Shown here: positions 28,439 to 29,766 of the stretch, piece after piece
How the letters are laid out: every line of letters begins with the position of its first letter
Numbering within the stretch: position 1 is the stretch's first letter
Source: a virus
Length of the DNA stretch: 29,905 bases
Strand: one strand, 5' to 3'
IMG/VR virus record: IMGVR_UViG_3300008450_000303
Coordinates: 1-29,905 of that record
The notes under the pieces: model-generated
What the model was told of the DNA's origin: nothing
Database searches by the model: none
The model's input: only the letters and a program-made list of their open reading frames with translations
Made by a program: the position numbers and the translations under genes

Positions 28439-28492
28439 ACCCGTCTAATAACCCGTTAGCTACCCGTCTCTATCCCCAATCGATACCCGTTT
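28439..28492 (+). repeat. ACCCGTCT/ACCCGTTT units, left cluster
   Basis: Units start at 28439, 28451, 28462, about 28472 (ATCCCC, degenerate) and 28485, spaced 10-13 nt. The direct arrangement matches the right cluster. Confidence 0.7.
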
Positions 28493-28746: not shown

Positions 28747-28950
28747 ACCTGTTCTAGATACCCATTTGGAAGTTGTACCTATAGGGGACAGGGAGAGAGT
28801 GTAAGGAGATACCCGATTTAGATACCTGTTTGTAACCCGTTCTAGTGACCCTTTTAGGAACCCAATAGAAACCCGTTTGGAAACCTGTTAGAGACCCGGT
28901 TGAGACCCGTTCTAGATACCCATTTGTAACCCGTTTAAGAGAACCCCTAC
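28747..28950 (+). repeat. ACCCGTTT-type degenerate tandem array, right cluster
   Basis: Units start at 28747, 28760, 28777, 28811, 28824, 28835, 28848, 28860, 28871, 28883, 28894, 28905, 28918, 28929 and 28943. From 28811 on, the 11 intervals average 12 nt (11-14). Consensus ACCCGTTYNRRA with ACCTGTT and ACCCATTT variants. Variable unit length rules out a coding repeat. Confidence 0.75.
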
Positions 28951-29250: not shown

Positions 29251-29385
29251 ATGAAAACAATTCAAATAACTCTCCAGGAGAGATGGGCAGCCTCCCAGCA
29301 CAAGGTGCATAAGAGCAAAAAGCAATACGACAGAAAAGAAAAACATAAGAACAAAGGACCTCAGAAGGGTCCTTCTTTTTTTTAG
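29251..29385 (+). CDS. small basic protein (44 aa) whose end is encoded in a terminator
   Basis: ORF starting MKTIQITLQERWAASQHKVH and continuing SKKQYDRKEKHKNKGPQKG, ending PSFF. The LQERWAxSQHKxHKSKKxYxRK pattern is familiar from short conserved proteins of many phages, function unknown. The last codons (KGPQKGPSFF) are specified by the terminator hairpin and its T-run, and the stop TAG follows the T-run. It begins 2 nt after the upstream stop. Confidence 0.65.
   Translation: MKTIQITLQERWAASQHKVHKSKKQYDRKEKHKNKGPQKGPSFF
29354..29382 (+). terminator. intrinsic terminator inside the end of a gene
   Basis: AAGGACC pairs with GGTCCTT around a TCAGAAG loop, followed by CTTTTTTTT. It lies within the last 11 codons of the gene at 29251. 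It has no comparable T-run on the minus strand. Confidence 0.85.
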
Positions 29386-29433
29386 TACCAGGTACCTTGT
29401 AATACCTACTACAGAATAAGGCGTACCGGCCCG

Positions 29434-29482
29434 TCTACTCTTCCGACAGTATCTCAGTGCCAGGCCCCCTATCTCTTTGATA
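29434..29482 (-). ncRNA. candidate small RNA A (ends approximate)
   Basis: Expected transcript of the minus-strand promoter at 29488-29518. No ORF. Near its start CTATC and GATAG can pair (29469-29483), and GGCCTG pairs with CGGGCC around a segment holding the conserved GGAAGAGTAGA. The 3' end is not defined; it may run into the antisense strand of the gene at 29251. Confidence 0.45.
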
Positions 29483-29487
29483 GTACC

Positions 29488-29518
29488 TAAAGATACGAAC
29501 AATTGCTCTATTATACAA
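29488..29518 (-). promoter_or_regulatory. minus-strand promoter A (20-nt spacer)
   Basis: On the minus strand TTG (29518-29516), a 20-nt spacer, then TATCTTTA (29495-29488) and GG. Same rule as the plus-strand promoters, preceded by A-tracts. Confidence 0.75.
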
Positions 29519-29596
29519 CTTTTTTGTAAACTTTTTTTATATTTTTTTATTATGGTAGGGTAGGTAGTGATAGGTAAAATCTATTACTAGAGTGTA

Positions 29597-29656
29597 AGGT
29601 ACCCTTCCATCTACTCTTCCACCAAGTAACATTTTGACAGGCCCAGTACTTCCGAC
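29597..29656 (-). ncRNA. candidate small RNA B (ends approximate)
   Basis: Expected transcript of the minus-strand promoter at 29663-29693. No ORF. It contains GGGCCTGTC and the conserved GGAAGAGTAGA of RNA A, with otherwise diverged sequence. The 3' end is not defined; A-rich DNA near 29540-29550 separates it from the promoter of copy A. Confidence 0.45.
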
Positions 29657-29662
29657 TCACCC

Positions 29663-29693
29663 TAAAGATACGAACAAAGATTCAATTCAGCAA
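29663..29693 (-). promoter_or_regulatory. minus-strand promoter B (20-nt spacer)
   Basis: On the minus strand TTG (29693-29691), a 20-nt spacer, TATCTTTA (29670-29663) and GGG. It is divergent from the plus-strand promoter at 29736, with about 43 nt between the two -33 boxes. Confidence 0.75.
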
Positions 29694-29735
29694 CTAATTC
29701 ACAAACTTTTTTTGAAAATTTTTTTATTAAAAAAG

Positions 29736-29766
29736 TTGGAGCCTATTATTAAAGTTACTATATTTA
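29736..29766 (+). promoter_or_regulatory. Bacteroidota-type promoter (20-nt spacer)
   Basis: TTG at 29736-29738 after AAAAAAG, a 20-nt spacer, TATATTTA at 29759-29766, then GGTATC and an ATTATG start at 29795. Confidence 0.8.

Follow-up and report, generated by a model that had tools for sequence, protein, structure and literature searches.

What could two minus-strand promoters serve in a stretch of phage DNA in which, as already noted in a preliminary description, no minus-strand gene is evident? The question is raised by the end of the window, that is, the whole stretch of 29,905 nucleotides analysed here, which is part of a T4-like phage genome related to Flavobacterium phage vB_FspM_immuto (hereafter immuto). 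Window and immuto share ∼78% nucleotide identity across matching stretches and an identical gene order. The preliminary description had reported a duplicated element with an offset of about 176 nt and proposed paired regulatory small RNAs, antisense to the gene at 29251 or acting in trans. The two copies are indeed present, 175 nt apart from promoter to promoter and 176 nt from word to word, and each unit has the same layout: TTG-N20-TATCTTTA, 18-20 nt, GGGCCUG, a hairpin (P2) and the word region GGAAGAGUAGAYGG.

29385-29518, minus strand: unit copy A, promoter and RNA core
29488..29518, minus strand: promoter of copy A, TTG at 29518-29516 and TATCTTTA at 29495-29488
29385..29474, minus strand: RNA core of copy A, match to model R1 with 80.1 bits, GGGCC from 29467
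29443..29463, minus strand: covarying hairpin P2 of copy A, with the invariant word directly 3′
29444-29431, minus strand: word of copy A, GGAAGAGTAGACGG
29560-29693, minus strand: unit copy B, promoter and RNA core
29663..29693, minus strand: promoter of copy B, TTG at 29693-29691 and TATCTTTA at 29670-29663
29560..29651, minus strand: RNA core of copy B, match to model R1 with 55.7 bits, GGGCC from 29644
29619..29640, minus strand: hairpin P2 of copy B, unlike that of copy A in sequence, with the same pairing
29620-29607, minus strand: word of copy B, GGAAGAGTAGATGG

Promoter, P2 and word are retained in both copies, and the word common to them, GGAAGAGTAGA, has a longer form, GGAAGAGTAGAYGG, that occurs just twice in the whole record. 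Copy A is nearest to locus L026 and to the first copy of L016, copy B to L017. A recent tandem duplication was rejected as the source of the pair because the nearest relatives of A and B differ; since their hairpins diverge as much as those of different phages, the copies resemble paralogues that separated long ago, not a fresh duplication. The two elements are best explained as paralogous copies of one phage small-RNA gene.

The promoter rule is sharp. The strict form TTG-N20-TATCTTTA occurs four times in the window (two sites per strand), where 0.095 are expected over both strands at the same composition. With a looser TAYHTTTA box, a spacing of 20 gives nine plus-strand and two minus-strand sites, whereas no other spacing between 14 and 26 yields more than one per strand. 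The claims that both strands obey one TTG-N20 rule, and that copies A and B carry the only minus-strand promoters of this type in the window, are thus borne out. Transcription in Flavobacterium johnsoniae starts 4-5 nt past the −7 element (PMC6847099), which predicts starts at about 29483/29482 for copy A and 29658/29657 for copy B, within 1-2 nt of the positions proposed earlier (29482 and 29656). Bacteroidetes sigma-ABfr promoters (TTTG / TANNTTTG) have the same −7 box, TANNTTT, and the same start spacing; the RNA promoter differs from them in that the final G is replaced by A, and it holds to TTG with exactly 20 nt far more strictly than the host consensus does. Across the family, the promoter is kept upstream of all 43 genuine unique members having enough upstream sequence, a tally that leaves out two further pattern matches judged to be chance, and the spacing is exactly 20 nt in 39 of the 43. 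Between promoter and core lie 11 to 30 nt, depending on the member, so that the two are conserved separately.

The family comprises ∼45 IMG/VR contigs, found by IMG/VR scans, together with the cultured immuto. Pattern matches at L048-L052 and L163 were set aside as chance and are not members. In immuto, which is available in culture along with its host, Flavobacterium sp. LMO8, nearly all annotated genes of the 160-kb genome lie on the plus strand. Its single RNA copy, at record positions 67421-67510, has a core that hardly differs from those of the window and is preceded by the same promoter. Only one minus-strand promoter in this genome follows the strict TTG-N20-TAYHTTTA form; it is the one ahead of the RNA, and its consensus is that of the adjoining early cluster. 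An annotated plus-strand hypothetical gene, immuto26A_125 (L003 4525-4623, equal to immuto 67454-67552), overlies the RNA and is probably spurious. Eighteen large positive phage records were compared for copy number: 17 contain one copy and one contains two. Over all loci, two copies occur in the window, L016, L011 and L036. The idea of paired small RNAs therefore holds as regards minus-strand small-RNA genes with their own promoters, and fails as regards the pairing, which is not general.

Conservation of the core in related phages, with a covarying stem, had been proposed as a check, and both are found. Across 31 aligned members, 91.4% of P2 cells are paired and both sides have changed in five of the seven pairs. 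Double-changed cells number 31, where shuffles give 7.3 ± 2.3 and sliding the helix yields no more than 11, and the two pairs of highest mutual information in the alignment both fall in P2. The hairpin also indicates the strand, with 91% of its cells paired as minus-strand RNA versus 66% as plus strand; when the two invariant outer pairs are left aside, 18 sequences favour the minus strand, 12 are equal and one favours the plus strand. Because many pairs are G-U, P2 forms well only in minus-strand RNA. The word GGAAGAGUAGA is nearly invariant, whereas P2 and the 3′ part vary; the only variants observed among members are GAGUGGAC and GUAAGAG, and two independent routes, a relaxed-word search and a search by homologous neighbour genes, brought in just a few variants (GGAAGAGUGGAC and GUAAGAGUAGAC).

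Covariation supports P2 only, and no further universal helix, outer helices included, was found among the aligned members. A candidate second helix, GAGU/RYUC, with its 3′ side ∼20 nt downstream, consists of pairs between invariant letters, and about one-fifth of the sequences break it. In three members (L016, L074 and L011) it stops just before a U-run, with which it could form a terminator. Individual sequences also hint at outer helices AAGG/CCUU and GGCC/GGCC and at a pseudoknot with GAGUA/UACUC, all of which were discarded for want of covariation support. Whole-unit fold energy was likewise rejected as a sign of an RNA gene, being unreliable: copy A folds better than its shuffles (z = −3.1) and copy B no better (z = +1.06).

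Three sequence marks of a phage small noncoding RNA are found here, namely its own promoter, a conserved RNA structure and the absence of a conserved ORF, and the comparative evidence makes it very likely that the locus holds a real structured noncoding RNA gene. The family is previously undescribed and has no Rfam match, although its general kind, that of phage small RNAs, is already known. Covariance models of the 4227 families of Rfam 15, run at the gathering score on the window and four relatives, gave no match to the core; at E values up to 5 and 1, the few weak matches were far under the cut-off and none involved the core. Among 84,980 prokaryotic species genomes scanned, the single match was on a phage-like contig of 3.3 kb that had been binned in a MAG. 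A model search of 49 ‘host-like’ genomes (a MAG family with which a phage contig had been binned, used in place of true hosts) gave two: the first is on the contig just named, the second on a 61-kb contig that has the phage-type neighbour gene. With no further matches in bacterial genomes, mimicry of a host RNA with the same core (6S RNA, a type III antitoxin or a CRISPR repeat) was rejected; a mimic by structure alone is conceivable. Microcystis phage Mel-JY01, the L096 contig and seven others, which are divergent and carry the 44-aa gene described below or a related capsid, gave no significant RNA match.

The surroundings of the RNA bear on its function.

29736..29766, plus strand: divergent promoter for the gene lying next past the RNA; in relatives, a promoter-dense early cluster starts here
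29251..29385, plus strand: convergent gene encoding a basic protein of 44 aa (MKTIQITLQERWAAS... / MKTIQITLQERWAASQHKVHKSKK...), a frequent, non-obligatory neighbour of the RNA
29345..29374, minus strand: predicted terminator for the minus transcript, of sequence AAGGACC-CTTCTGA-GGTCCTT-TGTTCTTAT; the plus-strand gene 29251-29385 uses this hairpin too
28808..28945 (also 28451-28491), plus strand: iteron-like array of ACCCGTTT, repeating about every 11-12 nt and located 3′ of the RNA

The RNA lies at the edge of a group of small early genes, most of which have the N20 promoter. The cluster of L055 (immuto 67608-76200) contains ∼20 small genes in ∼8 kb, most with TTG-N20-TAYHTTTA, and its GC skew is elevated. 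RNA and TerL lie on opposite strands in all 12 records having both, ∼36-51 kb apart as read from coordinates, with TerL identity to immuto down to 75%. The 44-aa protein has a weak Pfam match to DUF7230, below the cut-off, and homologues in many other phage contigs. The hairpin at 29354-29385 lies within the 3′ coding end of its own gene (GPQKGPSFF*) and looks usable from both strands; an equivalent bidirectional hairpin is found in immuto and in most loci carrying the gene. Repeats of 18 nt, AGTTAAAGCATCACTTTA, lie between the RNA core and the convergent gene at L003 4461-4517, in L031 (G006) at about −113 to −34 from the word, and in L147 (G008) at about −459 to −421; they would belong to the 3′ region of the transcript.

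In the explanation favoured here, the host RNA polymerase would make the RNA early in infection, as suggested by promoter type and position. The transcript of copy A would be about 130 nt long and end at the hairpin that also serves the convergent gene as terminator; copy B, which lacks a terminator of its own, may therefore be co-transcribed with A. Within the core, GGGCCUG-P2 hairpin-GGAAGAGUAGACNGG, P2 would act as a scaffold displaying the invariant purine-rich word. Action in trans through this word, as suggested in the preliminary description, is possible. The word would be a binding site for which a protein, of host or phage, is a likelier partner than a conserved RNA target, since pairing searches gave no conserved target. 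The explanation as a whole, an early trans-acting structured RNA that presents an invariant word to a protein, has about an even chance of being right, and its functional part, action in trans as a protein-binding RNA, is put forward somewhat more tentatively.

Several other readings of the minus transcript have to be weighed against this protein-binding RNA. That it is a short coding transcript for a tiny peptide ending GAA-GAG-TAG (MLEGNTGPGFERESEE in immuto, for example) has in its favour that such a frame is present in immuto-like and L033-type members; it is barely credible, given that most members lack the frame or have it out of register, neither window copy has a conserved form, hairpin lengths vary by 1-2 nt, and substitutions track base pairing rather than codons. 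An 85-aa open frame on the minus strand (29502-29245) does cross copy A, and its sole start codon before 29346 is the TTG inside the promoter, upstream of the transcription start. No ORF is conserved in any frame among the RNA homologues. Homologues with the promoter ahead of a minus-strand protein gene had been named beforehand as the pattern that would speak against small RNAs, and no such conserved gene was found. The same lack of a downstream minus-strand gene to read, in the window and in relatives, together with the terminator that follows in many loci, makes cis antitermination of the HK022 put type, in which the nascent RNA would modify RNA polymerase, extremely improbable, even though a structured RNA does lie 11-30 nt past the promoter box. 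Control of the 44-aa gene (29251-29385), by cis-antisense pairing or convergent transcription, would suit its convergent, adjacent position in most immuto-like loci and the terminator hairpin common to both transcripts. However, the core lies outside the gene, with which only the shared terminator overlaps, and the same core and promoter are kept in the L033/L037, L018 and L044 groups, in which a search of the neighbourhood gave no homologue of the gene; conversely, the RNA is missing beside remote homologues of the gene found elsewhere. The antisense role first proposed is thus unsupported, and control of this gene in either form is very unlikely.

Two readings give the RNA a wider reach. As a base-pairing small RNA, it would use unpaired GGAAGAGUAGAC as a seed for host or phage mRNAs, like PreS or OOP RNA. 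It is short, has its own promoter and terminator, and carries a conserved purine-rich stretch beside a hairpin that resembles a seed, and target-pairing phage small RNAs are well documented (PMC12197685). The target searches, which covered exact or near-exact pairing, nevertheless speak against it: the exact complement of the 11-nt word occurs in 11 of 40 host-like genomes, approximately the level of the backward-read control; complement sites in immuto show no clear excess, the one perfect plus-strand site being the RNA's own complement; and complementarity of rRNA to the word is no better than in shuffles, with several of the best sites in low-complexity T-rich stretches. A seed of 11 nt kept across phages whose TerL differs by 25% would, moreover, require an equally conserved target, and this reading is considered unlikely. 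The other would make the RNA part of a replication origin, the minus transcript priming or opening the DNA and the adjoining array binding an initiator. Of 25 loci, 23 have a strand-biased array of 11-14 nt repeats at a distance of 0.5-1.2 kb from the RNA, and the other two have an array of a different motif; the motif shifts by group (ACCCGTTT, AACCGT or CTCACGGCATC, with equivalents at L003 3387-3960, L033 and L031), and the array looks like iterons or another protein-binding array. The AT-rich locus, the divergent promoters and the conserved genome position relative to TerL point the same way, as does the fact that T4-type origins employ promoters and R-loops. Against it, the cumulative GC skew of immuto has no minimum at the RNA and its detrended maximum is ∼7 kb off, a primer needs no conserved structured core, and the distance from array to RNA varies, with the array lying beyond the terminator wherever one is predicted. 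Because of the iteron-like array beside the RNA, such a role keeps a small probability.

To return to the RNA itself, a near letter-perfect core amid turnover of the surrounding early genes points to an important function for its carriers, aquatic Bacteroidetes phages that form a widespread group. Few regulatory RNAs are known in such phages, and annotation pipelines overlook the RNA or overlay it with a probably spurious plus-strand gene. It might act early on one particular protein of host or phage, as inhibitor, decoy or activator, with GGAAGAGUAGAC as its binding element, or be, with the array, the RNA part of an undescribed RNA-dependent replication origin in T4-like phages, a pair of prospects to which we give slightly less than even weight.

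Similar small RNAs are known from other phages. T4 stable RNAs 1 and 2 (C and D) are small, stable and sited in the T4 tRNA cluster. The RNA described here is likened to them by description, as a small RNA of a T4-like phage, and differs in lying at the edge of an early cluster, antisense to the coding direction. PreS of lambda, VpdS and 24B_1 are phage-encoded small RNAs reported to be Hfq-linked and to act in trans on target RNAs (PMC12197685). The new RNA is likewise phage-encoded and probably trans-acting; in contrast to them, no conserved target was found for it, and its invariant element is far more conserved than a typical seed. Lambda OOP RNA is also small, with its own promoter, a terminator and an orientation opposite to the neighbouring genes. 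OOP is antisense to cII, while the core of the new RNA overlaps no gene in the window and, unlike OOP, combines a covarying hairpin with an invariant word in T4-like phages of Bacteroidetes.
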